Shown here: one piece after another, positions 8,385-42,477 of the stretch
Numbering within the stretch: the stretch's first letter is position 1
How the letters are laid out: each line of letters starts with the position of its first letter
Source of the DNA: a virus
DNA length: 42,533 bases
IMG/VR virus record: IMGVR_UViG_3300008113_000107
Span: 1 to 42,533 of that record
Reading direction: 5' to 3' (one strand)
The notes under the pieces: model-generated
Seen by the model: only the letters and a program-made list of their open reading frames with translations
What the model was told of the DNA's origin: nothing
The model's database searches: none
Translations under genes and position numbers: made by a program

Positions 8385-8394
8385 GAGGAACAAA

Positions 8395-8781: not shown

Positions 8782-8807
8782 ATTTAATTACTAGATAGGA
8801 GTAAAAC

Positions 8808-10058: not shown

Positions 10059-10073
10059 AAAGGAAACTTCAAA

Positions 10074-12035: not shown

Positions 12036-12050
12036 TAGGTAGTAAACACT

Positions 12051-12374
12051 ATGGCAAAATTCTATGGAGAAATCGGTTATGGTGAATCTGTAGAAACGGC
12101 CCCTGGAGTATGGGAGGACGTCGTTCGTGAGTATTCGTACTTTGGCGACGTCCTCCGCGACACTAGACAACTAACTGAGGGAGATAACCTTAATAAAAAT
12201 ATTAATGTTAGTAACTCAATCAGCATTGTAGCCGACGCTTATGCAAATGAGCATTTCTTTGCCATTCGCTACATCAAGTGGGCGGGGACTCTTTGGACTG
12301 TAACTGACGTTGAAGTTAAGAGTCCTCGTCTAATCTTGAGAATGGGAGGAGTCTATAATGGGCACACGCCTTGA
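12051..12374 (+). CDS. Head-tail joining protein (DUF7253-like)
   Basis: 107 residues. The pattern MAKFYGEIGYGESVETAPGVW, then YFGDVLRDTRQL, ISIVADAYANEHFFAIRYIKW and PRLILRMGGVYNG is a conserved phage family encoded directly after the capsid gene. The position suggests a head-closure or adaptor protein. It overlaps the next gene by 17 bases. Confidence 0.7.
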   Translation: MAKFYGEIGYGESVETAPGVWEDVVREYSYFGDVLRDTRQLTEGDNLNKNINVSNSISIVADAYANEHFFAIRYIKWAGTLWTVTDVEVKSPRLILRMGGVYNGHTP

Positions 12375-12663
12375 ACTCCAGAATCTACTTGAAAATATTT
12401 TAGGTTCACGTAACGTATATTTTCAACCACCAGAAAACCTAAAACTTAATTATCCATGCATTATTTACAAAAAAAATAAAGCCGATACTAAGTTTGCAGA
12501 TAACAAAACATATAATCATACAAAACGATATTCTATAACAGTTGTTGACAGGAATCCAGATAGTATATTTCCTGACAAAATTGCAGAACTTCCTATGTGT
12601 CTATTTGATAGACATTTCACTAAAGACGGACTGAATAACGATATCTATAATCTTTACTTTTAA
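12358..12663 (+). CDS. Probable tail terminator or head-tail joining protein
   Basis: 101 residues; pattern LQNLLENILGSRNVYFQPP, YPCIIYKK, then KRYSITVVDRNPD. This small alpha/beta family lies between the head adaptor and the tail tube gene in related phages and is generally taken as a tail terminator or completion protein. The ATG has GGGAGGAG about 5 bases before it, inside the preceding gene. Assignment is by position and pattern, without a catalytic motif. Confidence 0.65.
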   Translation: MGTRLELQNLLENILGSRNVYFQPPENLKLNYPCIIYKKNKADTKFADNKTYNHTKRYSITVVDRNPDSIFPDKIAELPMCLFDRHFTKDGLNNDIYNLYF

Positions 12664-12677
12664 GAAAGGTAAAAAAA

Positions 12678-13541
12678 ATGGCAAAACTTGCTTGGGACGA
12701 AACCGGTAAGCGTTTTTACGAAACCGGTGTAGACCGCGGTGTTCTATTCGTACAGGACACTTCAGGTAACTACACATCAGGTGTGGCATGGAACGGACTA
12801 ACTTCCGTATCTGAGGCACCTACTGGTGCTGAGGTAACCCCTCAGTACGCAGACAACATCAAATATCTAAACCTAACTTCTGTTGAAGAGTTTGGTGCGA
12901 CTATTGAAGCTTACACATACCCTGAAGAATTTGAGGTATGCGATGGAACAGCTTCACCAACTTCTGGTCTAGCTCTAGGACAGCAATCTCGTAGACGATT
13001 TGGATTTGCATATCGTACACGTGTTGGTAACGACCTAGTCGGAACCGATCTTGGATACAAGATTCACATAATCTACGGTGCATACGCTGCTCCTTCAGAA
13101 AAGGCATATGCTACAGTTAACGATTCACCAGAAGCGTTGACATTTAGCTGGGAGATTACAACTAACGCAGTTGAGGTACCAGGTTACAAGCCAACCGCCT
13201 CTCTAACCATTGATTCAACTAAGGTCAGCTCTGCAAAGATGACTGAGCTTGAGAATCTTCTTTATGGAACAGTTGGTGTAGACGCTCAGCTACCTCTACC
13301 TGGAGACATTATTACTTTGCTAGGACAAACCCTAACTGAAGTAACTCCAACTTCACCAACTTACAACTCAACTACTAAGGTAATTACTATTCCTACAGTA
13401 ACTGGCGTTGTTTACAAGATCAACAATGTAGTTAAGACTGGTACTGTTACCATCACAGCTAACACTGTTGTAACTGCTCATCCAGCAGCGGGATACAAGT
13501 TCCCAGCTGTTAGCGATGACGACTGGCTATTCACTTTTTAG
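12678..13541 (+). CDS. Major tail (tube) protein with C-terminal Ig-like domain
   Basis: 287 residues, with AAGAAAGG before the ATG. Residues 1-215 show the beta-rich tube pattern (WNGLTSVSEAPTGAEVTPQYADN, EEFGATIEAYTYPEEF, SWEITTNAVEVPGYKPTASL). Residues 222-287 repeat the C-terminal domain of the capsid protein (TIPTVTGVVYK and AAGYKFP...DDDWLFT). Codon use is shifted towards C endings, as in the capsid gene, as expected for an abundant virion protein. Position before the chaperone-like and tape measure genes agrees. Confidence 0.9.
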   Translation: MAKLAWDETGKRFYETGVDRGVLFVQDTSGNYTSGVAWNGLTSVSEAPTGAEVTPQYADNIKYLNLTSVEEFGATIEAYTYPEEFEVCDGTASPTSGLALGQQSRRRFGFAYRTRVGNDLVGTDLGYKIHIIYGAYAAPSEKAYATVNDSPEALTFSWEITTNAVEVPGYKPTASLTIDSTKVSSAKMTELENLLYGTVGVDAQLPLPGDIITLLGQTLTEVTPTSPTYNSTTKVITIPTVTGVVYKINNVVKTGTVTITANTVVTAHPAAGYKFPAVSDDDWLFTF

Positions 13542-13566
13542 TGTAGCCTAAGAAAGGAACTAGGGA

Positions 13567-14118
13567 ATGCTTATAATTAAAATAGATGCTGTCGAGTTAT
13601 TTGATGAAAATTCTAACGAATTCATAAAAACCGGAGCCACAACACTACACCTTGAGCATTCCCTAGTTTCCCTTTCCAAATGGGAGTCTACTTGGGAAAA
13701 ACCGTTTCTTGGTAGCGAAGAAAAAACCAATGAAGAAACAATAGACTACATTAGATGTATGACTGTTTCTGAAGATACACCTTTAGACGTGTATCATCGT
13801 TTATCTAACGAAAACATTAAAAAAATTAGTAATTACATTGATTCTAAAATGTCAGCTACTTGGTTTAACGAACAACACTTAAACTCAAGCGCAAGAATTA
13901 ATAAAGAAATAATAACCGCTGAAATAATTTACTATTGGATGATTAGTTTGAACATTCCATTTGAATGTCAATACTGGCACTTAAACAAACTACTTACATT
14001 AATCAAAGTTTGTAACCAAAAAAACGCTCCGGAGAAAAAGATGGGTAAACAAGAACTATTATCTAGGAACAAAGCCCTCAACGAAGCAAGAAGAAAACAA
14101 CTAAATACTAAAGGTTAA
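13567..14118 (+). CDS. Tail assembly chaperone candidate
   Basis: 183 residues between the tube and tape measure genes, where tail assembly chaperones usually lie. The pattern (LEHSLVSLSKWESTWEKPFL, ETIDYIRCMT, ITAEIIYYWMISLNIPFECQ, HLNKLLTLIKVCNQKNAP) is conserved in phage proteins at this position. The C-terminus is basic (KALNEARRKQLNTKG). I see no slippery site leading to an overlapping second frame, so the classical frameshifted extension appears absent. A second chaperone-like gene lies far away at 26917. Confidence 0.65.
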   Translation: MLIIKIDAVELFDENSNEFIKTGATTLHLEHSLVSLSKWESTWEKPFLGSEEKTNEETIDYIRCMTVSEDTPLDVYHRLSNENIKKISNYIDSKMSATWFNEQHLNSSARINKEIITAEIIYYWMISLNIPFECQYWHLNKLLTLIKVCNQKNAPEKKMGKQELLSRNKALNEARRKQLNTKG

Positions 14119-14142
14119 AAAAATTCAAAATGGGAGCAAACT

Positions 14143-14523
14143 GTGATAGAAATAGAAACTACGGGTTCTTTTAAAAACCTAGAAAAATTTTTAAAATCTA
14201 AAAGCTATAAATTTCCAAAGCAGATACTTGAAGAATACGCAAAAGAAGGTGTTTTAGCTTTATCTTTAGCTACACCAGTAGAATCTAGCTTAACTTCGTC
14301 ATCCTGGTCATATGAATTAATAAACGATGAAAAAAGTTTTTCTATAATCTGGAAAAACTCAAACACTACAACCGATGGCACCCCGGTAGCTATACTTTTA
14401 CAATACGGACACGCTACTGGAACCGGAGGATACGTTCAAGGTCTAGACTTTATTAATCCTGCAATACAACCAATATTTGATAAAATAGCCAACGATGTTT
14501 GGAGAGAGGTAACTGCTAAATGA
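14143..14523 (+). CDS. HK97 gp10-like minor structural protein
   Basis: 126 residues from a GTG start with GGGAGC about 7 bases before. The pattern LSLATPVESSLTSSSWSYE...ILLQYGHATGTGGYVQGLDFINPAIQPIFDKI is typical of the HK97 gp10-like tail completion family (the Gly/Thr-rich turn followed by FINPA). The gene normally lies before the tube gene; here it lies after the chaperone candidate and overlaps the tape measure gene by ATGA. Confidence 0.7.
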   Translation: MIEIETTGSFKNLEKFLKSKSYKFPKQILEEYAKEGVLALSLATPVESSLTSSSWSYELINDEKSFSIIWKNSNTTTDGTPVAILLQYGHATGTGGYVQGLDFINPAIQPIFDKIANDVWREVTAK

Positions 14524-17500
14524 CAACTATAGATGAACGCGTCGTTTCGATGAAATTCAATAATTCTGCATTTCAAAAAAACATAGAACAGACGACTAAA
14601 TCACTAACTGATTTAAAATCAAAACTTACATTTGAAAAAGCATCTGAAAGTTTAAGCAGGCTTTCTGCAATAGGTACAAGATTTAACTTATCAAACATCT
14701 CAAGTTCTTTAGACACCATCTCTAATAAATTTACAGAATTAAACGGTGTAGCTATTGTTGCTCTTGGTAACATAGCAACTAAAGCTATTTCTGCTGGAGC
14801 ACAGCTATTAAAATCTTTAACAATAACTCCAATCAATGCAGGTCTTGATGAGTACGAACTTAAGATGGGTTCGATTCAAACTATTTTAGCAAACACTTCG
14901 AAGTATGGAACAACTCTAAAAGATGTTAACAGCGCTTTAGACGCTTTAAATGATTATTCTGATAAAACTATTTATAACTTTGGTGCTATGACTAAAAACA
15001 TTGGTCTATTTACAAACGCCGGTATTAAGCTAGAAGATGCTGTATCAATGATTAAAGGTTTCTCTAACGCCGCAGCCGCGTCTGGTGTAACAGCTGAAAA
15101 CGCTGCTGGTGCAGCTTATCAGTTATCACAAGCAATGTCCGCAGGTACAGTTCGACTTATGGACTGGAGATCTTTAACAAACGCCGGTATGGGTGGTGCT
15201 AACATGAAGCAGGGTCTAGTAGACCTTGCACAATCAATGGGCACTCTAGGTAAACTAACACCTACCGGAGTTATGAAAGATTTTAACGGATCTCTTCAAC
15301 AGGGTTGGCTAAGCGCTGACGTAATGACTAAGTATTTATCTATTATGGCTGGAGATATGAATGAAGCTGAAATGGCAACATTGGGTCTATCAAAAGCGCA
15401 AATTAAAAATTTTAAACAGCAACAAAAAACGGCTGAAGAAGCCGCAACTAAGATTAGAACATACACTCAATTATTAGGTACCCTTAAAGAATCAGTAGCT
15501 TCTAGTTGGGCAGAAACATTCTCTCTAGTAATTGGTGATTTTAACGAAGCAACTGATTTATTTACAAACGTTAATAATGAATTTGGTAAGTTAATATCCG
15601 CATCAAGTAATGCTAGAAATAACCTATTAAAAGACTGGAAAGATTTAGGCGGAAGAACTAAACTCATTGATGGTATAGCTAACATATTTAAAGCTTTAAA
15701 ATCTGTTATTGATCCAATAGCAAAAGCCTTTAGAGAAATATTTCCAGCAACAACTGCTAAACAACTTTATGATTTAACATCGGCGTTTACTAATTTTACT
15801 AAAAATTTAATAATTGGTAAAAAAGTATCAAATGATTTAAAAAGAACATTTAAAGGTTTGTTTGCAGTTTTAGATATAATAGGTATGGTATTTAAAGCTG
15901 CTTTTGAAGCTATAGGTGCACTACTCGGTCCTGTTAGTAAAACCGGAAATGGTATCGCTAGCTTTACAGGCGACATTGGTGATTTTTTAGTATCAGTAAG
16001 AGATTTTATAAAAAGCGGTAATATATTTGGTAACGTATTTACATTTATTGGAAACGCAATTAAGTTTCCTATAGATCTATTTAATCAACTAACAAACGCA
16101 CTTACAAATAATAATCCAGTAGTTTCGGGAACAGCTGATGTTTGGAAAAATTTGTCAAATGTATTTATGGGTATTTGGGAATTTATAAAACCAGGAATTG
16201 ATTGGTTAATGAATGCCCTAAAGCTTTTAGGTGAAGGTATTATAAGCTTTTTTAAAACATTAGATTTTAATAGTTTTCTAGCTCTTGGAGCAACAGGATT
16301 ACTAGGTGCATTAACTGCCGGTGTATTTAAAATTTCTAAGATTTTAAAAGGTGGTCTTGACGCATTTAAAGACGGATTTTTTACAGGTCTAACCAGTAGA
16401 ATAAAAGATATTTTAAATACCGTTAAAGACACGTTGAAAAGTTTACAAACTGAAGTTCAAAGTAGAACTATTAAAAATATAGCAGTAGCTCTATTGATAT
16501 TAGCTGGCGCAGTACTTATATTGTCATTTATACCAGTAGACAGACTGGTTAGTTCTTTAACTGCATTAACAGTAATGCTTGTTCAGTTAATGGCCATAAT
16601 GGTTCTTTTTGAAAAAAATATAGCTTCTAAAGGCGCTGCAAAATTTGTATTTATAACAGGTGCTTTGATATTACTAAGCACGGCCATGCTTATATTTGCA
16701 ACAGCAGTAACTATAATTTCTAAACTTAGCTGGGACGAATTAGCTAGAGGTTTAGTTGGTATGTCTTTTGCATTAATACTTATGTTAAATGCTTCTAAGT
16801 TTATTTCTAAAAATGTAGGAAATATTACTGTTGCAGCTTTTGCAATAGGTATTTTATCTGCAGCTCTTTTAGTTTTAGGCTCAGCACTTAAATTATTTGC
16901 AAGTATGACTTGGGAAGAAATAGGTAAAAGTTTAACTGTATTAGGATCTCTACTAATAATGCTAAGTTTATTTACAGCAACTATGGATAAAATTGGTTTA
17001 GCTGTAGTTAATGTGTTTACTTTTCTAGCTTTAGCTGCCGCACTATCTTTGATGGCTTACGTTCTTAAACAATTTTCAAAACTAAGTTGGGAAGAAATAG
17101 CTAAGGGTCTAATTACTATGGCTTTATCACTTGGAATCATTGCTGGTGCTCTAAAACTTATACCATTAACAGCAGGCGTAACGGCTCTTAATTTAATAGC
17201 TGTAGCCGGAGCTTTATTTGTTATTGCAAATGTTTTAGAAAAAATGGCCGGTATGACTTGGGATGAAGTGGGTAGAGGTTTAACTGTTATGGCCGGTTCT
17301 TTGGCCATACTTGCGGGAGCTTTATATCTTATGACCGGAACTTTGGCCGGAGCAGGTGCTTTGATTGTTGCCGCTTTAGCACTATCTATATTAGCAGTTC
17401 CTTTAAAAATATTTTCTACACTTAATTGGGAACAAGTTGCAGTTGGGTTAGTATTCTTAGCTGGATCTTTAGCTATCATTGCTGGAGCAGGATATTTGCT

Positions 17501-18728
17501 AATAGGTGCTTTACCTGGACTATTAGGTTTAGGTGCAGCCATATTACTAGTTGGAATTGGTGCATACGCAGCAGGTATTGGATTATTCTTAATATCCGGA
17601 GCTATAGTAGCAATAACAGCAGCTTTATCTATCGGCGCAGTAGCTTTGGTAGAATTTGTAAAACTTCTAATAGGACTCATACCTTCTCTTGCAGAAAAAA
17701 TGGCTGAAGGTTTTATTGCATTTATTAAAAGTATAGGTGCTTCAACAGACGTTATATTTGTAACAATGGTTAATCTATTAACTACTATTGTTAACGCAAT
17801 AGCAACTGTAGCGCCTTTAGTTATTAAAACCGTATACGATTTAATATGGACAATTCTATCTACTATTGAAAAGAACTTGCCTAGATTTATTAAATCTGGT
17901 TCTAACATATTAGTTGCCTTCATAAATGGAATAGCTAATAACCTTCCTAGAATTATAAATGCTGGTGCTAATCTTATAGTCGCATATTTAAGAGGAATAA
18001 AAAAAGAATTTCCTAGAATCGTTGATGAAGGATTTAAAACAGTTATTGGTTTTATTGACGGATTAGCTGAAGCCATTAAAGTAAACGCCCCTAAACTAAG
18101 AGAAGCCGGACAAAATCTAGCTTTTGAAATACTAAACGGTATTACGGGTGGATTAGCTGGCGGAGCTAGAGACTTATTTAACGGTGCTGTAGACTTAGGT
18201 AATGAAGCCCTAGAAGGTATTAAATCTGCTTTGGGTATCAAATCCCCGTCTAAAGAATTTATGGAAATTGGTAGATTTTCTAATTTAGGTCTAGCTAACG
18301 GTCTTTCTAAATATTCAAATATTGCTGTAGATGCAGCCACTAATGTTGGTCTATCTGCTGTAGATAGTTTAAAGAAATCTGTTTCTAAAATATCAGAATT
18401 AGCTTTTAACGAACTAGATATGAACCCTACGATTAGACCTGTTCTAGATCTAAGCGCTATTAAAAAAGATTCTTTATCTATAGGTTCTATGCTTCAGCCA
18501 GCATCTATATCCGTTGGTTCAGCATACGCACAAGCATCGTCTATTGCTCTTGAACAAAGAGCTAGTAGATCTGAAAGTTCTGTTTCTACAGAAGAGACAT
18601 CGATCAGCTCAGATACAAACATTACATTTATACAAAACAATAATTCGCCTAAGGCATTATCAGCGTCTGAAATTTACAGACAAACTAAAAATCAAATCTC
18701 TGCTGTTAAATTAACTACAGCAGTTTAA
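14520..18728 (+). CDS. Tape measure protein
   Basis: 1402 residues, the longest gene; at about 1.5 Angstrom per residue it would predict a tail near 210 nm. The N-terminal part has DEYELKMGSIQTILANTSKYG, typical of tape measures. Residues about 675-1030 hold six hydrophobic repeats of 56-62 residues whose conserved start, (S/T/N)W(D/E)E, falls at 737, 797, 856, 913 and 969 after a diverged first copy. Three 22-residue repeats with LPR/FPR follow (about 1120-1185), then the conserved GIKSPSKEFMEIGR motif. The hydrophobic section may help DNA cross the cell membrane. Start overlaps the upstream stop (ATGA). Confidence 0.95.
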   Translation: MTTIDERVVSMKFNNSAFQKNIEQTTKSLTDLKSKLTFEKASESLSRLSAIGTRFNLSNISSSLDTISNKFTELNGVAIVALGNIATKAISAGAQLLKSLTITPINAGLDEYELKMGSIQTILANTSKYGTTLKDVNSALDALNDYSDKTIYNFGAMTKNIGLFTNAGIKLEDAVSMIKGFSNAAAASGVTAENAAGAAYQLSQAMSAGTVRLMDWRSLTNAGMGGANMKQGLVDLAQSMGTLGKLTPTGVMKDFNGSLQQGWLSADVMTKYLSIMAGDMNEAEMATLGLSKAQIKNFKQQQKTAEEAATKIRTYTQLLGTLKESVASSWAETFSLVIGDFNEATDLFTNVNNEFGKLISASSNARNNLLKDWKDLGGRTKLIDGIANIFKALKSVIDPIAKAFREIFPATTAKQLYDLTSAFTNFTKNLIIGKKVSNDLKRTFKGLFAVLDIIGMVFKAAFEAIGALLGPVSKTGNGIASFTGDIGDFLVSVRDFIKSGNIFGNVFTFIGNAIKFPIDLFNQLTNALTNNNPVVSGTADVWKNLSNVFMGIWEFIKPGIDWLMNALKLLGEGIISFFKTLDFNSFLALGATGLLGALTAGVFKISKILKGGLDAFKDGFFTGLTSRIKDILNTVKDTLKSLQTEVQSRTIKNIAVALLILAGAVLILSFIPVDRLVSSLTALTVMLVQLMAIMVLFEKNIASKGAAKFVFITGALILLSTAMLIFATAVTIISKLSWDELARGLVGMSFALILMLNASKFISKNVGNITVAAFAIGILSAALLVLGSALKLFASMTWEEIGKSLTVLGSLLIMLSLFTATMDKIGLAVVNVFTFLALAAALSLMAYVLKQFSKLSWEEIAKGLITMALSLGIIAGALKLIPLTAGVTALNLIAVAGALFVIANVLEKMAGMTWDEVGRGLTVMAGSLAILAGALYLMTGTLAGAGALIVAALALSILAVPLKIFSTLNWEQVAVGLVFLAGSLAIIAGAGYLLIGALPGLLGLGAAILLVGIGAYAAGIGLFLISGAIVAITAALSIGAVALVEFVKLLIGLIPSLAEKMAEGFIAFIKSIGASTDVIFVTMVNLLTTIVNAIATVAPLVIKTVYDLIWTILSTIEKNLPRFIKSGSNILVAFINGIANNLPRIINAGANLIVAYLRGIKKEFPRIVDEGFKTVIGFIDGLAEAIKVNAPKLREAGQNLAFEILNGITGGLAGGARDLFNGAVDLGNEALEGIKSALGIKSPSKEFMEIGRFSNLGLANGLSKYSNIAVDAATNVGLSAVDSLKKSVSKISELAFNELDMNPTIRPVLDLSAIKKDSLSIGSMLQPASISVGSAYAQASSIALEQRASRSESSVSTEETSISSDTNITFIQNNNSPKALSASEIYRQTKNQISAVKLTTAV

Positions 18729-23245: not shown

Positions 23246-23272
23246 TCGCGAGTATAACAACGCTTATAATGA
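23246..23272 (+). promoter_or_regulatory. TCGC-19-TATAAT promoter 1
   Basis: TCGC at 23246, ACAA in the spacer and TATAATGA from 23265. The distance from TCGC to TATAAT is 19 nt, as in all eight copies in this genome. No TTGACA lies at the canonical -35. It starts right after the lysis operon and drives the small membrane gene 27 bases downstream of TATAAT. Confidence 0.8.
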
Positions 23273-23291
23273 CAGCTCTTGAAAGGAGAAT

Positions 23292-23576
23292 ATGTTGAAA
23301 AGTAAAAACGATAACTCGCTAGCAATTGACGAGGCCATCGAACGAATACTCAATCGAATGCAATATGTAGAAGTAGATTCCGAAGAATACGGTACTATGG
23401 TCTCCAGACTGGATAAACTTTACGCGATGAAAAACACAAATAAAAATCGTGTTAGTAAAGATGCAATCTGGACCATTGGTGCTAATATCTTAGGTATTAT
23501 ACTAATCCTAGGGCACGAAAGAGCAAACGTCGTAACCTCTAAAGCACTAAGCTTTATAGTAAAACCAAAAATATAA
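23292..23576 (+). CDS. Small membrane protein, cassette 1
   Basis: 94 residues, ATG after GAAAGGAG. The N-terminal half is helical and charged, then RVSKDAIWTIGANILGIILILGHE forms a membrane span at about 57-75. The tail ERANVVTSKALSFIVKP is weakly hydrophobic. I recognise the GANILGIILILGxE...VTSKAxSF pattern from other phage small membrane proteins without known role. It has its own promoter and is followed by a long hairpin. Confidence 0.7.
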   Translation: MLKSKNDNSLAIDEAIERILNRMQYVEVDSEEYGTMVSRLDKLYAMKNTNKNRVSKDAIWTIGANILGIILILGHERANVVTSKALSFIVKPKI

Positions 23577-23593
23577 ACAACTAAAAGATGTTA

Positions 23594-23637
23594 AAAAGTT
23601 AGGTGCTGTGTATAAAATTACACGGCATCTAACTTTT
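23594..23637. terminator. 19-bp hairpin after cassette 1
   Basis: A 19-bp stem (two G-T wobbles) around the loop TAAAAT; the arms start and end with AAAAGTTAG and CTAACTTTT. The 3' arm ends in TTTT and a further T-run lies near 23649-23656. It probably terminates transcription from promoter 1 or stabilises the 3' end. The next gene has no promoter of the TCGC type, so read-through is likely needed. Confidence 0.75.
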
Positions 23638-23671
23638 ACACATCATATATTTTTTCATAGAAGGAGTTAAA

Positions 23672-23899
23672 ATGAGCTACAGTAATAAGCAAAGAAAAAA
23701 GATTATTAAGATGCTAACTCAAACAAAAAACGACATTGAGAAGCTAGAAAAAAAGGTTGATAAAATTAAGCTTTGGCTTGATATTTACGAAACCCTACTT
23801 TACGCAACAGATCAAGAAGATGATTACGAAGAAGATACAAATGAGGAAGAAACAAACGAAGACGTTGAACCGGAAGCTGAAGAGAATAAGGACGAGTAG
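23672..23899 (+). CDS. Coiled-coil protein with acidic tail
   Basis: 75 residues, ATG after AAGGAG. Residues 1-50 are a basic amphipathic helix with coiled-coil heptads (IEKLEKKVDKIKLWLDIYETL). Residues about 52-75 are almost only Asp, Glu and Asn. No membrane span, unlike its neighbours. Function unknown; the acidic tail could mimic nucleic acid, but nothing more supports that. Confidence 0.65.
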   Translation: MSYSNKQRKKIIKMLTQTKNDIEKLEKKVDKIKLWLDIYETLLYATDQEDDYEEDTNEEETNEDVEPEAEENKDE

Positions 23900-23901
23900 A
23901 C

Positions 23902-23928
23902 TCGCAAAATTTACATGTCCTATAATGA
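23902..23928 (+). promoter_or_regulatory. TCGC-19-TATAAT promoter 2
   Basis: TCGCAAAA, then TATAATGA starting 19 nt after the first T of TCGC. It is the most diverged spacer in the set (TTTACATGTCC instead of ATACAAGGC). It begins 2 bases after the preceding stop codon and drives the MYRPF membrane protein gene. Confidence 0.75.
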
Positions 23929-23958
23929 ACCACTTACACCACTATGAAAGGAAATATT

Positions 23959-24177
23959 ATGTATAGACCATTCAACAAATATAGAACTAGTACTATTGAA
24001 GAAATTATCATTATTGATACTGCACAAGAAAATAGAGATCTTAGAAAGCTAAACAAAAAGCTTTCAAGAAAATCTAAGATTCAGTCAGTAACAGTAGTTG
24101 GACTAATTATTTTCATTGTACTTGTTACAAGAAAAAACGTTGTAGAAGTTACAGAAACTCTTAATGTAAAACCGTAA
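23959..24177 (+). CDS. Small single-pass membrane protein, cassette 2
   Basis: 72 residues from the ATG at 23959, which follows GAAAGGAAATATT; an earlier in-frame ATG at 23944 lies upstream of that site. It starts MYRPFNKYR, like the next cassette's MYNPFSTKK. A charged helix follows, then one membrane span at about 47-62 (TVVGLIIFIVLV). Probably anchored with the N-terminus inside, given the positive charges before the span. Role unknown. Confidence 0.7.
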   Translation: MYRPFNKYRTSTIEEIIIIDTAQENRDLRKLNKKLSRKSKIQSVTVVGLIIFIVLVTRKNVVEVTETLNVKP

Positions 24178-24188
24178 GTAATCAAAAG

Positions 24189-24220
24189 TATAAAGCCCTT
24201 AAACAAGGCTTTATATTTTT
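24189..24220 (+). terminator. Repeated terminator, copy 1
   Basis: TATAAAGCC(C)TT pairs with AAGGCTTTATA around the loop AAAC, followed by TTTTT: a typical intrinsic terminator. Four more copies with the same CTTAAACAAG apex occur downstream. The next promoter's TCGC begins 4 bases after the T-tract. Confidence 0.85.
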
Positions 24221-24223
24221 CTA

Positions 24224-24250
24224 TCGCACAAAATACAAGGCTTATAATGA
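24224..24250 (+). promoter_or_regulatory. TCGC-19-TATAAT promoter 3
   Basis: This 27-base element (TCGCACAAAATACAAGG then CTTATAATGA) is identical to promoter 4, 300 bases downstream. It follows a terminator directly, so it isolates the next gene as a separate transcription unit. Confidence 0.85.
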
Positions 24251-24271
24251 CCCCCTATGAAAGGAGATATT

Positions 24272-24466
24272 ATGTATAACCCATTCAGCACAAAAAAAGA
24301 ACTGAAGCAAATAGCGGAACTGCAACAAGCAGAAGGTCCCTTAGATTTAGAAAAAGCATACTCAATTAACCAAAAATTGTTTATTAAGAATCTAATTCAA
24401 ATGGGACTAACTCTTGTAACAGCTCTCGTTGTTGTTTCTTTAGTTGCAAAAGAACTGAAAAAGTAA
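24272..24466 (+). CDS. Small single-pass membrane protein, cassette 3
   Basis: 64 residues from the ATG after GAAAGGAGATATT. It begins MYNPFSTKK, resembling the preceding cassette product, so the two may be diverged paralogues. An amphipathic helix is followed by one span at about 44-60 (MGLTLVTALVVVSLVA) and a basic end. It is framed by its own promoter and terminator. Confidence 0.7.
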   Translation: MYNPFSTKKELKQIAELQQAEGPLDLEKAYSINQKLFIKNLIQMGLTLVTALVVVSLVAKELKK

Positions 24467-24488
24467 ACAAGTATAAAAATTTAAAAAG

Positions 24489-24520
24489 TATAAAACCTTT
24501 AAACAAGGCTTTATATTTTT
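24489..24520 (+). terminator. Repeated terminator, copy 2
   Basis: TATAAAACCTT and AAGGCTTTATA can pair with small bulges around TAAAC, then TTTTT. It shares the AAACAAGG apex and right arm with copy 1; promoter 4 begins 3 bases after the T-tract. Confidence 0.8.
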
Positions 24521-24523
24521 GCC

Positions 24524-24550
24524 TCGCACAAAATACAAGGCTTATAATGA
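24524..24550 (+). promoter_or_regulatory. TCGC-19-TATAAT promoter 4
   Basis: Identical over 27 bases to promoter 3. The conservation continues into the leader (ACCCCCTAT, then TGAAAGGA), so terminator, promoter and leader were duplicated as one block. Confidence 0.85.
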
Positions 24551-24578
24551 CCCCCTATCCCTATTGAAAGGAATTATC

Positions 24579-24758
24579 ATGTCAAAGAAATCAATTAAAG
24601 AATTTGTAGAAATCAATACTCACGCTGTAAAAGCAAACGCAAAAGCTGTAGCAACTAACGTTGCACTGCTAAAGCCTGTTGCTAAAACCGCTGTAAATAT
24701 TGCATTTTACACATTTGCCTTTATTGGAATCCTTGCTGTAATGAACAAAGATAACTAG
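24579..24758 (+). CDS. Small single-pass membrane protein, cassette 4
   Basis: 59 residues from the ATG after GAAAGGAATTATC. An Ala- and Lys-rich helix (about 14-35) is followed by one span at about 36-55 (TAVNIAFYTFAFIGILAVM). It has its own promoter and terminator. No family recognised. Confidence 0.7.
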   Translation: MSKKSIKEFVEINTHAVKANAKAVATNVALLKPVAKTAVNIAFYTFAFIGILAVMNKDN

Positions 24759-24773
24759 TAGTAGTCAAAAATG

Positions 24774-24804
24774 TAAGACCCTTAAACAAGGTCTTATATT
24801 TTTT
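24774..24804 (+). terminator. Repeated terminator, copy 3
   Basis: TAAGACC(C)TT pairs with AAGGTCTTA around AAAC, followed by TATTTTTT. Stem bases differ from other copies (GACC/GGTC instead of AGCC/GGCT) but still pair, a compensatory change showing that the hairpin itself is conserved. The last T is also the first base of promoter 5's TCGC. Confidence 0.85.
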
Positions 24805-24830
24805 CGCGTCGATTACAAGGCCTATAATGA
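24804..24830 (+). promoter_or_regulatory. TCGC-19-TATAAT promoter 5
   Basis: TCGCG, then TTACAAGGCC and TATAATGA at the invariant spacing. It abuts terminator copy 3. The leader, with CACTATCCCTATTGAAAGG, resembles that of promoter 4. Confidence 0.85.
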
Positions 24831-24858
24831 ACCACTATCCCTATTGAAAGGAATTATT

Positions 24859-24990
24859 ATGAGCAAAATTAAAGATTCAGCAGATACCGTAGCAGCAATA
24901 GCATACGCCGGAATTGGCGTACTAATGTTGTACGGTCTTATAGTTACATCTCTAAAAGCAGCACGTAAAAAACAACTTATTAAAGAATAG
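24859..24990 (+). CDS. 43-residue membrane protein, cassette 5
   Basis: ATG after GAAAGGAATTATT. One span covers about residues 11-32 (VAAIAYAGIGVLMLYGLIVT), followed by a strongly basic tail (KAARKKQLIKE). It has a complete promoter-leader-gene-terminator unit of under 240 bases, which supports it being real in spite of its size. Role unknown. Confidence 0.7.
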   Translation: MSKIKDSADTVAAIAYAGIGVLMLYGLIVTSLKAARKKQLIKE

Positions 24991-24999
24991 TATTTGAAG

Positions 25000-25031
25000 T
25001 ATAAGTCCCTTAAACAAGGGCTTATATTTTT
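25000..25031 (+). terminator. Repeated terminator, copy 4
   Basis: TATAAG and TTATA outer arms with CCCTT/AAGGG inner pairs around AAAC, one T-C mismatch, then TTTTT. No promoter follows, so the DUF6353-like gene immediately downstream would depend on read-through. Confidence 0.85.
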
Positions 25032-25046
25032 CGAAAGGAGCTCATC

Positions 25047-25805
25047 ATTAATATACAAAACATTTTTCAAAAAGTAAAAACCTTAGCTATAGATAACTCA
25101 CCGTTAATTCTAACTTATATTTCAGTAGCCGGTGTTGCAACTACAGCTATTTTAGCAGTTAAAGCAACGCCTAAAGTTTTGACATATTTAGAACAAGACA
25201 CTAAAGGGAAAGGTTCAAAGCTTACAAGTCAAGAAGTACTAAGAGCTAGTTGGCGTGCTTACACTCCAGCAGCTGTATCTGGCTTAGTAACTATAACTAG
25301 CATTATTGCATCTAACAGAATTAGCAGCAAACGAAACGCTGCGCTTGTAACCCTATATTCTCTTGCCGAAACAGCATATAAAGAATATAGAACTAAGGTA
25401 CAGGAAGAAGTTGGTGAAAAGAAAGCTAAGCAGTTTAAGGACGACATTGCTAAAGATCACTTGCTAGACACGCCTATGGCCCTATCACAAGTATTTATTA
25501 CAGGTATGGGTGAAACATTATGCTATGACTCATACACTGGTCGATATTTCAAGTCCGACATGGAAACAATTAGGAAAGCGCAAAACGATATAAACGCTAA
25601 AATTTATAGAGATATGTATGCTAGTCACAACGATTTTTACGCTTTGATTGGTCTTGAGAAAGCTGCAATTGGCGAAGAAGCCGGATGGAACGGAGATAAC
25701 CAATTAGACATTGAGTTTTCTTCTCATCTAGCTAGTGATGGAAAACCTTGCCTATGTATTGAGTATAGAACAGAACCTGTTCGCGGATATTATAAGTTTG
25801 GATAA
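25047..25805 (+). CDS. DUF6353-like membrane protein, probable ATT start
   Basis: 252 residues if started at ATT 25047, which lies 6 bases after AAAGGAG. The nearest canonical start, a TTG at 25179, has no ribosome binding site and would remove the first membrane span. The sequence upstream of the TTG is clearly protein-like in the same frame (NSPLILTYISVAGVATTAIL, span about 19-41). A second span lies at about 72-92; the rest is soluble. The pattern KATPK...WRAYTPAAVSGLVTITSIIAS...RNAALVTLYSLAETAYKEY fits DUF6353 phage membrane proteins of unknown role. A paralogue lies at 28712. Either a rare start codon or a G-to-T sequence error explains the ATT. Confidence 0.75.
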   Translation: MNIQNIFQKVKTLAIDNSPLILTYISVAGVATTAILAVKATPKVLTYLEQDTKGKGSKLTSQEVLRASWRAYTPAAVSGLVTITSIIASNRISSKRNAALVTLYSLAETAYKEYRTKVQEEVGEKKAKQFKDDIAKDHLLDTPMALSQVFITGMGETLCYDSYTGRYFKSDMETIRKAQNDINAKIYRDMYASHNDFYALIGLEKAAIGEEAGWNGDNQLDIEFSSHLASDGKPCLCIEYRTEPVRGYYKFG

Positions 25806-26293
25806 TGCAAACTTTTTTAACGATACCAACAACTGATTTTACAAAAATCGCAGAGTCGTTAGATCGTTTAAGGTTAAATAAACAAGCTTTAGAAGCTTGG
25901 CAATTATTAATGACTAATTTAAGTTTAGACCCAGATAACAACTATAGAAAACCTAAAGCTTGGTATAACCACCCAGCAGCAGTTATGTGGAAAGGGTACG
26001 AAGTTTCTTTATATTATTATATAAAGGCTATGACCGACGAATGGATTAAACGAGGATACAAAACCACCATATTAGATAAAGCTACAGAAACAATGGAAAC
26101 AGCGCAAGCTAGTGGTTTTATATTAACATCAGAGTTTCCTTATTGGATGAAAAATAAAAAACTATACAATGACATAGTACATACTCACAGAGTAGCCTTA
26201 TTGGCTAAAGACTATGAATGGTATAGTAAATTTAATTGGCCGGAAGATACAGGAAAAAGACCAGATGAATATAACTATATCTGGTATAAGTAA
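25805..26293 (+). CDS. MSMEG_6728/Pyr_excise-like protein
   Basis: 162 residues; TAATG overlap with the DUF6353-like gene. The pattern is that of the MSMEG_6728 family in the pyrimidine-dimer glycosylase (Pyr_excise, T4 endonuclease V-related) superfamily: MQTFLTIPTTDFTKIAESLD, RLRLNKQALEAWQLL, HPAAVMWKGYEVSL, HTHRVALLAKDYEWY and a Pro-rich end. Members of T4 endonuclease V type cleave glycosidic bonds at UV lesions; activity of this subfamily is not established as far as I know. It could protect or modify phage DNA. Confidence 0.75.
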   Translation: MQTFLTIPTTDFTKIAESLDRLRLNKQALEAWQLLMTNLSLDPDNNYRKPKAWYNHPAAVMWKGYEVSLYYYIKAMTDEWIKRGYKTTILDKATETMETAQASGFILTSEFPYWMKNKKLYNDIVHTHRVALLAKDYEWYSKFNWPEDTGKRPDEYNYIWYK

Positions 26294-26299
26294 TAAGGG

Positions 26300-26326
26300 T
26301 CGCAAAAAATACAAGCCCTATAATGA
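26300..26326 (+). promoter_or_regulatory. TCGC-19-TATAAT promoter 6
   Basis: TCGCAAAAAA, then TACAAGCCC and TATAATGA at the invariant distance. It begins 6 bases after the preceding stop and drives the 55-residue membrane protein. Confidence 0.8.
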
Positions 26327-26355
26327 CACCACGTCACGTCTTGAAAGGACAAATT

Positions 26356-26523
26356 ATGAACAAGGTAAAAGATGCTATGAACAACCTAACCAAGAACAAG
26401 AACGTACCAACTAAGAAGATTCTTCTAGTAGTAGGAACCGTTGTAGGTATTGCACTTACAGCTGGACTAATTGCTAAGAACAAGTCTTCAGTAGTAAACG
26501 CTCTTGAATCAGTTAAAAAGTAA
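26356..26523 (+). CDS. Small single-pass membrane protein, cassette 6
   Basis: 55 residues, ATG after GAAAGGACAAATT. A basic N-terminal helix (KDAMNNLTKNKNVPTKK) precedes one span at about 21-42 (ILLVVGTVVGIALTAGLIA). It has its own promoter and a strong terminator. Codons are slightly more C/G-ending than in its neighbours. Function unknown. Confidence 0.7.
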   Translation: MNKVKDAMNNLTKNKNVPTKKILLVVGTVVGIALTAGLIAKNKSSVVNALESVKK

Positions 26524-26554
26524 CATCCACCCATATAAAAAACCAAAGACAATT

Positions 26555-26593
26555 AAAAATTGAATACGATTTAAAACATCGTATTCAATTTTT
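26555..26593. terminator. 16-bp hairpin after cassette 6
   Basis: AAAAATTGAATACGAT pairs perfectly with ATCGTATTCAATTTTT around a 7-base loop, followed by ATGTTTTT. It has A-tract and T-tract on both sides and can act as an intrinsic terminator. The sequence is unrelated to the five repeated terminators. No promoter is seen before the next gene. Confidence 0.85.
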
Positions 26594-26614
26594 ATGTTTT
26601 TCGAAAGGAATATA

Positions 26615-26917
26615 ATGCAAATCAAAGAAAATCAAACATTTCTTCCAGAGGGATTAATTACTGTACTACAAAACACAGTCGTTGATAACTACAATGAACA
26701 CAAGAACGAAAAAAACCAAGTACTGACTAGAGATGAAGTTACACTTATCTCTGTGATTACAAACGATATAGCTAACGAAGTATATCTGCTAACAACCACT
26801 CGAAACGATGGTCTACTATATGCCCTTCACTTTGAAGGTTCTATGGTAACCCTATATTTATACAACAGAATTGCTAGAAAAGTTCTAGCAAGCAAAGAAA
26901 CCGTAGAAGGAGCATAA
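26615..26917 (+). CDS. Unknown 100-residue protein
   Basis: The ATG follows CGAAAGGAATATA. A soluble, acidic-to-neutral protein with a helical N-terminal part (LPEGLITVLQNTVVDNY) and a beta-rich C-terminal half (EVYLLTTTRNDGLLYALHFEG, MVTLYLYNRIARKVL). It overlaps the next gene by one base (TAATG), so the two are probably co-translated. The family is not recognised; a partner role for the chaperone-like product is a guess from coupling. Confidence 0.65.
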   Translation: MQIKENQTFLPEGLITVLQNTVVDNYNEHKNEKNQVLTRDEVTLISVITNDIANEVYLLTTTRNDGLLYALHFEGSMVTLYLYNRIARKVLASKETVEGA

Positions 26918-27378
26918 TGCTAAAGAAAACACTAACATATACCGATTTTAATGGCGTTGAAGTTACTGAAGATTTTTACTTTAACTTGACAAAAGCTGAA
27001 ATTGCTGAAATGGAAGTAAACGCTTCAACACTAGATTCTACTGGTAATGTTAAAGGTGGAATGGAAGCAATGCTAAATGATGTAGTTGAATCCGGAAGCG
27101 GAAAACGAATCATTGAAGTATTTAAAGAGATTGTTAGAAAATCAATTGGTAGAAAAAGTGAAGATGGAAAGTACTTCTTTAAAGACGCGTCTATTTGGCA
27201 CGAGTTTGAAGCAAGTCCTGCATATTCAGATTTCTTTGTTGAATTGTTAACCGATCCAGACGCAGCTGCTAATTTTATCAAAGGCGTAATGCCTGTCGAT
27301 TTTGATACTTCTGATGTGCCACCTCCAATTCCATTGAAGACCTTTCTTCCTGATGGACCAACTAAACTAGAAGATTAA
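26917..27378 (+). CDS. Tail assembly chaperone-like protein
   Basis: 153 residues. The start (LKKTLTYTDFNGVEVTEDF, then YFNLTKAEIAEME), followed by IIEVFKEIVRKSIGRKSEDGKYF and SDFFVELLTDPDAAANFI, matches a phage family normally linked to tail assembly chaperones. It lies in the small-membrane-gene region, over 8 kb from the tape measure gene and after the lysis genes. The name rests on family resemblance only. The C-terminal about 30 residues are Pro- and Asp-rich. Confidence 0.6.
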   Translation: MLKKTLTYTDFNGVEVTEDFYFNLTKAEIAEMEVNASTLDSTGNVKGGMEAMLNDVVESGSGKRIIEVFKEIVRKSIGRKSEDGKYFFKDASIWHEFEASPAYSDFFVELLTDPDAAANFIKGVMPVDFDTSDVPPPIPLKTFLPDGPTKLED

Positions 27379-27389
27379 ATAATAACTTG

Positions 27390-27444
27390 GGAAGTAGCAC
27401 CGTTATATTACTATCGCTCTGTAATATAACCTATGCTTACTTTT
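27390..27444. other. Structured intergenic element (hairpin)
   Basis: GTTATATTAC (27402-27411) pairs perfectly with GTAATATAAC (27421-27430) around TATCGCTCT. The flanks AAGTAGCA and TGCTTACTT extend the stem with a bulge, then TTTT follows. It can serve as terminator for the chaperone-like gene. The remaining sequence to the next promoter (about 27445-27495) holds no gene I can support. Confidence 0.6.
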
Positions 27445-27495
27445 AAACGACAATTGGCCGACTTCATGGTATGCGCCCACTATTATTTATTTTAA

Positions 27496-27522
27496 TCGCG
27501 AGTATAACAAGGCTTATAGTGA
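27496..27522 (+). promoter_or_regulatory. TCGC-19-TATAGT promoter 7
   Basis: TCGCGAGTATAACAAGG matches promoter 1 closely (16 of the first 17 bases). The -10 is TATAGT instead of TATAAT. Spacing is again 19 nt. It drives the 89-residue membrane protein. Confidence 0.8.
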
Positions 27523-27551
27523 GCCACTATCATCTCTTGAAAGGAGAATTT

Positions 27552-27821
27552 ATGAACCCGCTCAATCTAATAAAAACTGTTACAGAACTAATGGTATCTG
27601 TCGGAGTTGGATCTATTGTAGGAAACACTATCAAGAATGCTACACCTACCAATGCACATATCGTAAAACGTATAAGCATGGGTATCGGTGGGTTTTTCTT
27701 GAGCAGTATGGTTTCTTCAAAAGTATCCAAATACGCAACGGAAACTATCGATGAAACAGCTGAAAAGATTAAGTCAATCAGAAAAACCGAAACAAAGTTT
27801 GATGAAACAAAAGCTAATTAA
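27552..27821 (+). CDS. Small membrane protein, cassette 7
   Basis: 89 residues from the ATG after GAAAGGAGAATTT. Two hydrophobic segments (about 11-27, VTELMVSVGVGSIVGN; about 42-57, SMGIGGFFLSSMVSSK) may form a hairpin in the membrane; the C-terminus is charged. The MNPLNLIKTVTELMVSVGVG pattern recurs in other phages as far as I recall, with no known function. It has its own promoter and a copy of the repeated terminator. Confidence 0.7.
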   Translation: MNPLNLIKTVTELMVSVGVGSIVGNTIKNATPTNAHIVKRISMGIGGFFLSSMVSSKVSKYATETIDETAEKIKSIRKTETKFDETKAN

Positions 27822-27834
27822 ATAAATTAAAAAG

Positions 27835-27866
27835 TATAAGCCCTTTAAACAAGGGTTTATATTTTT
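27835..27866 (+). terminator. Repeated terminator, copy 5
   Basis: TATAAGCCCTT pairs with AAGGGTTTATA (one G-T wobble) around TAAAC, then TTTTT. It closes the small-cassette array. No promoter precedes the next gene. Confidence 0.85.
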
Positions 27867-28711: not shown

Positions 28712-29614
28712 ATGTTTAATATTACTAATATTAAATCTTCCGTTATTACATCAATGGGAAGAACCGGATTGATCATTAGAAAGTTTAGTCCAGAGATTCT
28801 AACAACTGTTGGAATATTAGGTATGATTGGTACAACAATTTTAGCAAGCAGAGCAACAGTTAAGCTTGGTCCTATTGTTGAGGAAATCAAGGATCAAAAA
28901 GCAGAAGCAAAGTGGGCTTCTGACGAGTTGACTACAGCAAATGGTTATTACGACAAACAAGCTCACACTAAAGCTATTTCTAAAGTATACGTTAAGGGCG
29001 CTTTAGATATATCTAAATTGTACGGTCCTTCTATCACTATTGGTCTGACGTCTATTGGATGTATCATTGCTGCTCACGGCATTATGCAAAAGCGAACTGT
29101 TGCTATTGCTGCTGCTTACAAAGCCTTAGAAACTACCTTTGGCGAATATCGAAAAAGAGTAATTGCTGAAATTGGCGAAGAAAAAGAATCGGATATTAGA
29201 ACTAACAAAAAAGAAGTAGATGTAGTTTCTAAAGACGGAAAAAAGTCTAAAGCAATTACCGCAGATACAAATGGTATTTCTGTATATGCTAGGTTCTTTG
29301 ACGAGCATTCTCAAAATTGGAGCAAGACATCAGAATACAATTTGATGTTCTTAAAGTCTCAGCAAAACTACGCTAACGACCTTCTTCACGCTAGAGGACA
29401 CGTATTCCTAAACGATGTTTATGATATGTTGGGTATTCCAAGATCCCAAGCCGGTCAAGTAGTTGGTTGGGTTATTTCTAAGGATGGCGATAACTTTATT
29501 GACTTTGGTATCTACGATCATTACAATAACAACGCACACAGCTTTGTTAACGGTATTGAGCACTCCATTCTTCTCGACTTTAACGTCGACGGCGTAATTT
29601 ACGATCAGATCTAA
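28712..29614 (+). CDS. DUF6353-like membrane protein, second paralogue
   Basis: 300 residues. It is similar in layout to the protein at 25047: a first span at about 31-48 (LTTVGILGMIGTTILASRA), then a second at about 110-128 (SITIGLTSIGCIIAAHGI) followed by QKRTVAIAAAYKALETTFGEYRK, paralleling the first copy's SSKRNAALVTLYSLAETAYKEYR. A soluble C-terminal half contains FLNDVYDMLGIPRSQAGQVVGW. It has an ordinary ATG start after AAAGG. Both copies are probably anchored in the host membrane. Confidence 0.7.
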   Translation: MFNITNIKSSVITSMGRTGLIIRKFSPEILTTVGILGMIGTTILASRATVKLGPIVEEIKDQKAEAKWASDELTTANGYYDKQAHTKAISKVYVKGALDISKLYGPSITIGLTSIGCIIAAHGIMQKRTVAIAAAYKALETTFGEYRKRVIAEIGEEKESDIRTNKKEVDVVSKDGKKSKAITADTNGISVYARFFDEHSQNWSKTSEYNLMFLKSQQNYANDLLHARGHVFLNDVYDMLGIPRSQAGQVVGWVISKDGDNFIDFGIYDHYNNNAHSFVNGIEHSILLDFNVDGVIYDQI

Positions 29615-34948: not shown

Positions 34949-35506
34949 ATGAAGAAATCAATAATCTTTGTAACCACTGTTTGCATAGTATTCTTAGGTG
35001 CAGACAGGGGTTTATCTGAAAACCAATATAATAAAAATATTAAGCAAGAAAAAAATATTAAGCAAGAAAAAAATATTAACTTACTTTTTTTAAAAGAAAA
35101 AGACGAAAAAGTAGTTAGCTTAATAAATAATACAGATGATATGTCCGAAGTTTTAAATTATCTAAAGCAACGAGTAAATAAAACACCATATGTATATTCT
35201 GGTTCTAACCCAAAAAGAGGGTGGGACTGCTCAGGTTTAGTAGTATGGACATACAAACAATTTAATATAGAAATACCGCACTCCGCACACAAACAGTATC
35301 TCTACGGTAAGGAAACAAAAAATCCTAAACCTGGCGATATTGTTTTGTTTGGTAACAACAATCACTATGATCACTCTGCTATATATTTAGGAAACAACAA
35401 AGTAATAAACGCTAATAGATATTATGGTACTACCGTTATTGAGTCTGTTAACGATTTTAAAATGTATTCAAAGTTAATATATATAAGAGTTATCGACACA
35501 TTATAG
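34949..35506 (+). CDS. Secreted NlpC/P60 cysteine peptidase
   Basis: 185 residues. A signal peptide or anchor (MKKSIIFVTTVCIVFLGA) starts the protein. After a linker with a NIKQEK tandem repeat (28-43) comes an NlpC/P60 domain: Cys94 in GWDCSGL, His142 in YDHSAIYLG, and a polar third residue in VINANRY. Such enzymes cut stem peptides of peptidoglycan. With a signal peptide it could be exported without holin, during infection. It lies in the replication block, not with lysis genes, so a role in wall remodelling or exclusion of other phages is possible. Confidence 0.8.
   Translation: MKKSIIFVTTVCIVFLGADRGLSENQYNKNIKQEKNIKQEKNINLLFLKEKDEKVVSLINNTDDMSEVLNYLKQRVNKTPYVYSGSNPKRGWDCSGLVVWTYKQFNIEIPHSAHKQYLYGKETKNPKPGDIVLFGNNNHYDHSAIYLGNNKVINANRYYGTTVIESVNDFKMYSKLIYIRVIDTL
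35035..35079 (+). repeat. 18-base tandem repeat in the NlpC/P60 linker
   Basis: Two and a half exact copies of an 18-base unit (AAATATTAAGCAAGAAAA) encode NIKQEK repeats. In-frame slippage would change only linker length between the signal sequence and enzyme. Confidence 0.9.
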
Positions 35507-38312: not shown

Positions 38313-38317
38313 CACAA

Positions 38318-38335
38318 TAAGTACACACCTTTTAT
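38318..38335 (+). repeat. 18-base inverted repeat, left arm
   Basis: TAAGTACACACCTTTTAT. Its exact reverse complement lies at 38607-38624, 271 bases between the arms. Flanking bases do not extend the match. Confidence 0.95.
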
Positions 38336-38606
38336 ATATTCCCACTTACCCATTTTCTGGAAAAAAATGTGGTAGGTTTGTACACACTTTTTAAATGTGG
38401 TGGACAAATCTCTGGGAATGTGTCCATTTTTGAAAACGTTCTTGGCCACGAAAGTCCACATGTTTGTGGTTGTGAGATCTCAGTAAACTATTGAGACTTG
38501 TAAGGACGATGTTTCATTTTGGTCAAAAACCCATTACTATATATTAAAACTTTATAAAGTAAATTAATAATAATATAAAGAGTTTTTCATCAAAAAATGT
38601 GTGACC

Positions 38607-38624
38607 ATAAAAGGTGTGTACTTA
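38607..38624 (-). repeat. 18-base inverted repeat, right arm
   Basis: ATAAAAGGTGTGTACTTA, the exact reverse complement of the left arm at 38318-38335. It ends 4 bases before the promoter's upstream CGC box, so a protein bound here could also control that promoter. Confidence 0.95.
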
Positions 38625-38627
38625 ATC

Positions 38628-38654
38628 ACGCACTCTAAACAAGGCGTATAATAG
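38628..38654 (+). promoter_or_regulatory. CGC-19-TATAAT promoter 8
   Basis: ACGCACTCTAAACAAGGCG then TATAATAG. The box-to-TATAAT distance is 19 nt as in the seven promoters at 23.2-27.5 kb, and ACAAGGC is kept. It would drive the leader frame, both nucleases and the RNA-polymerase-like gene. Confidence 0.8.
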
Positions 38655-38666
38655 AAGGAATAGAAT

Positions 38667-42237: not shown

Positions 42238-42477
42238 ATGGCTAAGTTCATGTTAACTACTGTAGATAATCCTTTCAATCCTTTTAAACAGTTTGATGAG
42301 TGGTTGTCTTATGATGAATCACAAGGATACTACAGTAATGAGTTGCTTGCAAGAGTCGCCACCTACTCAGATGAACTATCTGAAGCAGACCAGGATCTTG
42401 CAATCGAGTCAGCAATTAATGATATAATAAAAGAAGACGCAACTTTACTTTATAAAAAGATAAAAAATAATATCTAA
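42238..42477 (+). CDS. Small conserved phage protein, 79 residues
   Basis: ATG after AGAAAGGATTTT. Acidic and helical; the pattern MAKFMLTTVDNPFNPFKQFDEW, GYYSNELLARVATYSDELSEAD and AINDIIKEDATLLYKKIK is a conserved small family in phages, often beside the RNA-polymerase-like gene. Function unknown. Its last 12 codons lie in the terminal repeat. Confidence 0.75.
   Translation: MAKFMLTTVDNPFNPFKQFDEWLSYDESQGYYSNELLARVATYSDELSEADQDLAIESAINDIIKEDATLLYKKIKNNI

Follow-up and report, generated by a model that had tools for sequence, protein, structure and literature searches.

Exchangeable cassettes of small, mostly membrane-protein genes behind a repeated phage promoter-like motif, and a phage-encoded polymerase as its candidate reader

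What reads a series of conserved promoter-like elements, each set before a different small gene, and how do the genes come to differ within so constant a frame? This question is raised by positions 23246–27866 of the virus record IMGVR_UViG_3300008113_000107, a stretch of 42,533 nucleotides (42.5 kb; GC 30–47%) that was analyzed in full and is referred to here as the window; coordinates are window positions, and the array features described lie on the plus strand. We consider it moderately probable that the array is made up of exchangeable accessory cassettes and that the phage’s own polymerase reads them. In each cassette, a phage-specific promoter and a short GAAAGGA leader would precede a gene for a small protein, in most cases membrane-spanning, with a hairpin as terminator at the end. 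As promoter and terminator are both repeated, recombination between copies is possible, and this would add, drop or replace genes while leaving the frame in place. Comparison of sequences brought out the motif, its restriction to one strand and one region, its conservation over phyla and, in relatives, the exchange of genes between constant flanks; that the repeated element is a promoter is inferred.

A pattern scan with TCGC-N7-AC-N6-TATARTGA-N5-25-GAAAGGA yielded exactly seven full matches in the window, all on the plus strand and all within 23246–27545, compared to no matches in 100 shuffles. The first promoter and leader (TCGC-N7-AC-N6-TATAATGA ... GAAAGGA, with zero expected) occupies 23246–23287, and the others lie at 23902–23952, 24224–24265, 24524–24572, 24804–24852, 26300–26349 and, with the core TATAGT, 27496–27545. 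An open reading frame (ORF) follows 46–57 nt from each motif, giving proteins of 94, 72, 64, 59, 43, 55 and 89 residues in order, and behind each of the seven ORFs lies a hairpin (z-scores of −2.5 to −10.2 against shuffles), in most cases with a T run.

Two of these genes, the first and the last, are conserved anchors for which many relatives have homologues. The 94-residue protein (23292–23576; phrog_5818) has homologues in Gordonia, Arthrobacter, Streptomyces and Curtobacterium phages, and its hairpin at 23587–23644 has a folding energy of −33.3 kcal/mol (z −10.2); the 89-residue protein (27552–27821) belongs to phrog_7539 and precedes a terminator-like hairpin at 27830–27866 (z −5.3). The four cassettes spanning 23902–24990 have no homologue in ten relatives. 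Their genes, at 23959–24177, 24272–24466, 24579–24758 and 24859–24990, encode the proteins of 72, 64, 59 and 43 residues, each with one hydrophobic segment, and are followed by terminator-like hairpins at 24184–24220 (with a T run; z −5.8), 24484–24520 (z −2.5), 24767–24803 (z −4.9) and 24996–25030 (z −5.2). The 55-residue product of the sixth cassette (26356–26523), also with one hydrophobic segment, has a weak match to phrog_7890 (E 1.6e-4), and its gene is followed by a perfect 17-bp hairpin at 26554–26594 (z −8.1). Clustering had assigned this 55-residue protein to the family of the first anchor, an assignment that was judged spurious.

The Kyte-Doolittle mean over 19 residues exceeds 1.6 in five of the seven cassette proteins, with the two anchors borderline (1.53 for the 94-residue and 1.47 for the 89-residue protein). 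Over eleven phages, a hydrophobic segment was found in 38 of 67 ORFs behind the motif (57%) versus 52 of 292 other small ORFs (18%; Fisher p = 8e-10), counts that are approximate in that they come from our own ORF caller, which misplaced the start of one window gene. Some cassette proteins are non-membrane, and membrane character is usual rather than universal. In addition, five genes inside the array stretch, starting at 23672, 25032, 25805, 26615 and 26917, have no promoter copy of their own, and some lie just behind a hairpin; read-through must therefore feed them.

An earlier note, made from the sequence alone, had described a unit of promoter, leader, small protein and terminator repeated about seven times, and the seven motif copies, each with an ORF and then a hairpin, bear this out. 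Its conserved leader, CTAT...GAAAGGA, is right for GAAAGGA, present in all seven matches, and too strict for CTAT, which occurs in most leaders but not in all. Its mostly membrane proteins of 43–94 residues pass the hydropathy cut-off in five of seven cases, the 94- and 89-residue proteins being borderline, and its autonomous one-gene cassettes describe seven real units in a stretch that is not purely autonomous, given the five interspersed genes without a promoter.

Two of these interspersed genes have recognizable products. A DUF6353 protein is encoded at 25032–25805 (a second copy lies at 28712–29614), with a good GAAAGGAG ribosome site upstream; the first in-frame ATG, GTG or TTG occurs only at 25179, within the conserved region, and translation may begin instead at ATT or ATC around 25044–25049. 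A pyrimidine-dimer DNA glycosylase (Pfam PF03013, E 1.8e-15) follows in mid-array at 25805–26293, lacking its own promoter copy and any homologue in the ten relatives.

As the window has no close relative, gene turnover was examined in its relatives rather than around the window itself; a megablast search among annotated phages found no near-identical match. By its DUF6353, primase-polymerase and DFDGD proteins (the last described below), the window is assigned to one large phage lineage. Its members include phages of Arthrobacter (Mudcatvirus, Gordonvirus, Zeina), Gordonia (Deejayvirinae), Rhodococcus (ReqiPoco6), Streptomyces, Microbacterium, Curtobacterium, Lactococcus (1706, P078) and Faecalibacterium (FP_oengus). 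In the Gordonia phages Captrips and Perkunas, flanks that are 85–91% identical enclose unrelated genes in two slots, with homology ending approximately 42–45 nt past the motif start, which is the start codon, and returning approximately 30–35 nt before the next motif. Avazak and Captrips, which are 95–98% identical around the event, are set apart by the presence or absence of a single entire cassette. The breakpoints fall in the promoter repeat, and a 76-bp segment of Captrips spanning terminator and promoter matches the additional cassette at either end. Cassettes common to Gordonia and Rhodococcus phages occur in a different order in the two groups. We relied on near-identical phage pairs because a test on the boundaries of high-scoring segment pairs, which gave a strong signal, was set aside: a conserved promoter alone would end alignments at the same places.

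The leaders point in the same direction. Mismatch at their free positions was 0.30 between different genes of one genome, 0.43 for the same gene in other phage groups and 0.44 for unrelated leaders, and the observed difference of 0.130 compares with a maximum of 0.068 in 200 permutations. Leaders are alike within a genome and not by gene, and the frame therefore belongs to the genome rather than to the gene. The proposal in the earlier note that genes are swapped into a standard frame is thus upheld in relatives by the two Gordonia pairs, the order changes and the leaders, with the qualification that the first and last cassettes are fixed anchors and several genes are promoterless. Turnover at constant flanks was seen in Captrips/Perkunas and Avazak/Captrips, and the opposite pattern, the same genes in the same order with no turnover, was looked for in relatives and not found.

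Repeats located at recombination breakpoints could also be read as RNA-processing or recombination sites instead of promoters. This explanation is extremely unlikely, as the element occurs on one strand only, keeps a fixed distance to start codons and tRNA-like genes, contains a −10-like core and is preceded by terminators.

The distribution of the motif was followed in ten phages of Actinobacteria, Lactococcus and Faecalibacterium, where the coding strand carries 94 sites and the opposite strand has zero. No site falls in the terminase-to-tape-measure block, and nearly all are placed after the tail genes and before DUF6353, with extra right-arm copies in six phages, in four of them directly before the nuclease-exonuclease-polymerase operon; some copies also precede tRNA-like genes. 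The cluster DJ phages Gravy, Avazak, OhMyWard and Runhaar carry the motif with TATAAT shortly 5′ of small-gene starts in mid-genome, as does the window. No sites occur in five phages that infect the same host genera but are unrelated. The strict form of the motif was detected in more than 118 stretches of viral contigs. A scan of 85k bacterial genomes gave just seven stretches, at least one of which belongs to a phage-like contig encoding the polymerase as well. An isolated match in a Bifidobacterium genome, where the polymerase is missing, was attributed to chance or to a host promoter. Two further contigs hold related arrays. A 97.9-kb AT-rich contig has seven copies at 7229–18017 with TCGCA at −31 and CCTTCTATAAT in place of ACA, which by sequence are a further diverged form of the motif, and it encodes the DFDGD protein. 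A 36.8-kb contig binned as Saccharibacteria has six such promoters within approximately 2 kb (353–1560) and stops before the expected position of any polymerase gene.

An eighth, weaker promoter copy in the window (ACGC-N7-ACA-N5-TATAATAGA, 38628–38657, plus strand) lies outside the array, before the nuclease-exonuclease-polymerase operon, and its position is matched in Zeina, Gordon and FP_oengus. This copy may feed back on the polymerase operon. The surrounding segment, 38313–38660, is AT-rich and non-coding, with repeated TTTACACACC-like and ACACACC words just 5′ of the promoter copy, and is a possible replication origin or regulatory region.

The layout of the promoter consists of CGC(A/G) near −30, one helical turn 5′ of ACA at −20 to −18, followed in most cases by TATAATGA. 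De novo enrichment, in which unbiased word counts were taken upstream of −10-like hexamers without use of the motif itself, recovered TCGCA at −31 and/or TTACA at −22 in Rima, Gordon, Secretariat, Zeina, Count, Mudcat and JoyLin, and TTTTACA in Lactococcus phages 1706 and P078 at the same place as the actinobacterial TTACA. The minus-strand control gave no such signal in the window or in nearly all of the other phages; it brought up a different repeat in Rima and weak unrelated words in a few others. A TTGACA-like −35 was found in no phage group, the enrichment yielding TCGCA and TTACA instead, and a generic sigma-70 scan did not set the motif sites apart from background (19 versus 20 expected). 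Positions T−12, A−11 and T−7 of the −10 element TATAAT are kept in the window and in the phages of Actinobacteria and Lactococcus. In the Faecalibacterium phage FP_oengus the core is CTTTATGG, with T−12 in 2 of 13 sites, A−11 in none of 13, and CA at −19 in 11 of 13. In gut contigs the core is TTTTATGA, TATTATGA or TTTAATGG, and in three contigs A−11 is missing at 11 of 22 sites, with CGC and CA remaining; the FP_oengus and gut sites were collected with patterns requiring CGC and in part CA, for which the chance expectation of the whole pattern is 0.00–0.01.

Repeats of this kind have been described in cluster DJ. In Vardy, a 50-bp intergenic motif that contains TATAAT and is called sigma70-like recurs five times in a region of membrane genes and terminators (PMC9671010), Conley likewise has five copies with the same designation (PMC10868162), and the report on Pherobrine and Burley lists such repeats as characteristic of the cluster (PMC9753669). 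Since the motif was already published for these Gordonia phages, novelty does not lie in the array itself, which resembles the published one in TATAAT, genome region, small membrane or signal-sequence genes and predicted terminators. The assumption of the cluster DJ authors, that these are ordinary strong early promoters served by host sigma-A alone, has TATAAT, the location in a small-gene region and the published reading in its favor, yet we consider it very unlikely. Host sigma factor alone is argued against because a −35 consensus is missing in every group, the upstream blocks hold one register and spacing across phages from several phyla, and the −10 is lost in FP_oengus; the motif is also almost absent from bacterial genomes.

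The candidate reader is a 900-residue single-chain, two-barrel RNA polymerase-like protein (phrog_4291; 39525–42227, plus strand) with a DFDGD motif and both N- and C-terminal helix-turn-helix (HTH) matches. Its gene was present in every motif phage tested and in 250 records, and the catalytic core LSGADFDGD is invariant in 14 of 14 sequences of the family, which PHROGs labels an RNA-dependent RNA polymerase. The top Protein Data Bank match in Foldseek for an AlphaFold model of the protein was the two-barrel polymerase QDE-1 (E 6.5e-7, probability 1.00), followed by RDR2 (E 4.5e-4) and then the large subunits of cellular RNA polymerases; as modeled, the protein has the two double-psi-barrel fold of the YonO/QDE-1 type. 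Enzymes of this type are real: YonO is a phage DNA-dependent RNA polymerase whose promoter was left undetermined in that study (PMC5467207), and gp96/gp64 of P23-45 have cognate promoter motifs of their own (PMC10770324), AT-rich and GC-rich and thus different from the window motif. The window protein shares with them the DFDGD-type catalytic motif, the single chain and the phage origin, and its activity is putative.

Among the proteins that the window has in common with ten relatives, whose hosts range from Actinobacteria to Lactococcus and Faecalibacterium, HTH matches were found only in the DFDGD protein, and no MotA or AsiA match was found among the window proteins scanned or in the shared core list. 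These results bear on the main alternative, in which host RNA polymerase with sigma-A is directed by a phage-encoded activator, the CGC/ACA block being the activator site that replaces the −35, and cassette exchange proceeds unchanged. Such a layout is known from T4 middle promoters, where a phage-specific box near −30 replaces the −35 and is joined to a −10 (PMC2988021), and TATAAT or TATAGT in the actinobacterial and Lactococcus copies would suit it. T4 middle promoters differ in sequence. We regard an activator as unlikely, because the Faecalibacterium phage and half of the gut-contig sites have a decayed sigma −10 next to an upstream block that stays.

The explanation we favor over an activator is that the DFDGD polymerase reads the promoters instead of a host sigma factor, probably via its built-in HTH domains. 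A virus-encoded RNA polymerase as reader is probably the reason why the motif has been conserved among viruses whose bacterial hosts are so different. For the fuller proposal, that the motif is the cognate, sigma-free promoter of a QDE-1/YonO-type single-chain polymerase and that one lineage has carried the pair across phyla as a slot system for fast-changing membrane genes, we find the case evenly balanced. Several observations weigh against the phage polymerase as reader. The actinobacterial and Lactococcus cores are all TATAAT or TATAGT, or nearly so, as a host sigma factor would want, and TATAAT is retained in nearly all actinobacterial copies. The CGC block is missing in Lactococcus P078 and in all 1706 copies but one, and its retention in FP_oengus and gut sites (with CA in part) is partly by construction, because the collecting patterns required these blocks. 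Promoter divergence correlates with polymerase divergence (r 0.78) about as with terminase divergence (0.77), and the co-occurrence of polymerase and motif is confounded by descent, because the polymerase travels with a whole conserved gene core. The structural model is of moderate confidence (pLDDT 74, pTM 0.56), with a low global TM-score to QDE-1 (0.29), and YonO serves late genes, in contrast to a motif that precedes no structural gene here.

Directly 3′ of the polymerase gene, at 42238–42477 on the plus strand, is a gene for a 79-residue acidic protein (phrog_4303) that is conserved in all ten relatives tested, including the Lactococcus and Faecalibacterium phages. It is a candidate partner of the DFDGD polymerase.

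What the cassette proteins do was addressed with PADLOC, NCBIfam and Pfam searches, which returned no function and no defence or anti-defence match for any of them. Because of their small size, turnover and separate promoter class, we rank first an accessory role at the host membrane, where the proteins may serve in takeover, superinfection exclusion of other phages, anti-defence or lysis tuning. A narrower explanation is that they are mainly a lysis-tuning set of holins and antiholins rather than takeover or exclusion factors. The array does begin directly after an M23-peptidase and a 93-residue membrane protein, its products are small single-span proteins, and the 89-residue last cassette protein has a very weak holin family match (phrog_198, E 0.04). 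This was the best holin match and none was significant, gene number and turnover are far above those of known lysis cassettes, and the promoter family is separate from the late genes; a mainly lytic set is accordingly quite unlikely.

Cassette shuffling of this general kind has a precedent in the PeSL cassettes of T4-type phages, which Arbiol and colleagues reportedly described in 2010 as repeats of a promoter and stem-loop that separate small genes and were proposed as the driver of modular shuffling in hyperplastic regions. The likeness lies in a promoter and stem-loop repeated between exchangeable small genes. PeSL promoters are of the ordinary strong sigma70 early type in T4-type myoviruses, whereas the window motif has no −35 and belongs to an unrelated siphovirus-type lineage. 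Cassette shuffling in principle, the cluster DJ motif and single-chain two-barrel phage polymerases were thus already known. The cross-phylum promoter family, its two-block structure, the loss of the sigma −10 in some members and the tie to the DFDGD protein appear to be new in the literature searched; the cluster DJ papers have neither the CGC/ACA blocks nor the spread to other groups and phyla, the swaps or the link to a phage polymerase. If the motif is the promoter of the DFDGD enzyme, hundreds of sequenced phages could be used to test how promoters are located, in the absence of sigma, by the simplest two-barrel polymerases, and the pair would be a portable promoter-polymerase system. Independent of the polymerase, the slots flag small, fast-changing membrane proteins as natural candidates for takeover or exclusion.

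Finally, two minor features were observed elsewhere in the window. A gene for an NlpC/P60 protein with an apparent signal peptide, at 34949–35506 on the plus strand, lies between the DNA polymerase and single-strand annealing protein genes and is absent from the ten relatives. The same HAGKKGMKWGVR peptide opens two small proteins encoded on the plus strand at 6264–6620 and 8377–8781.

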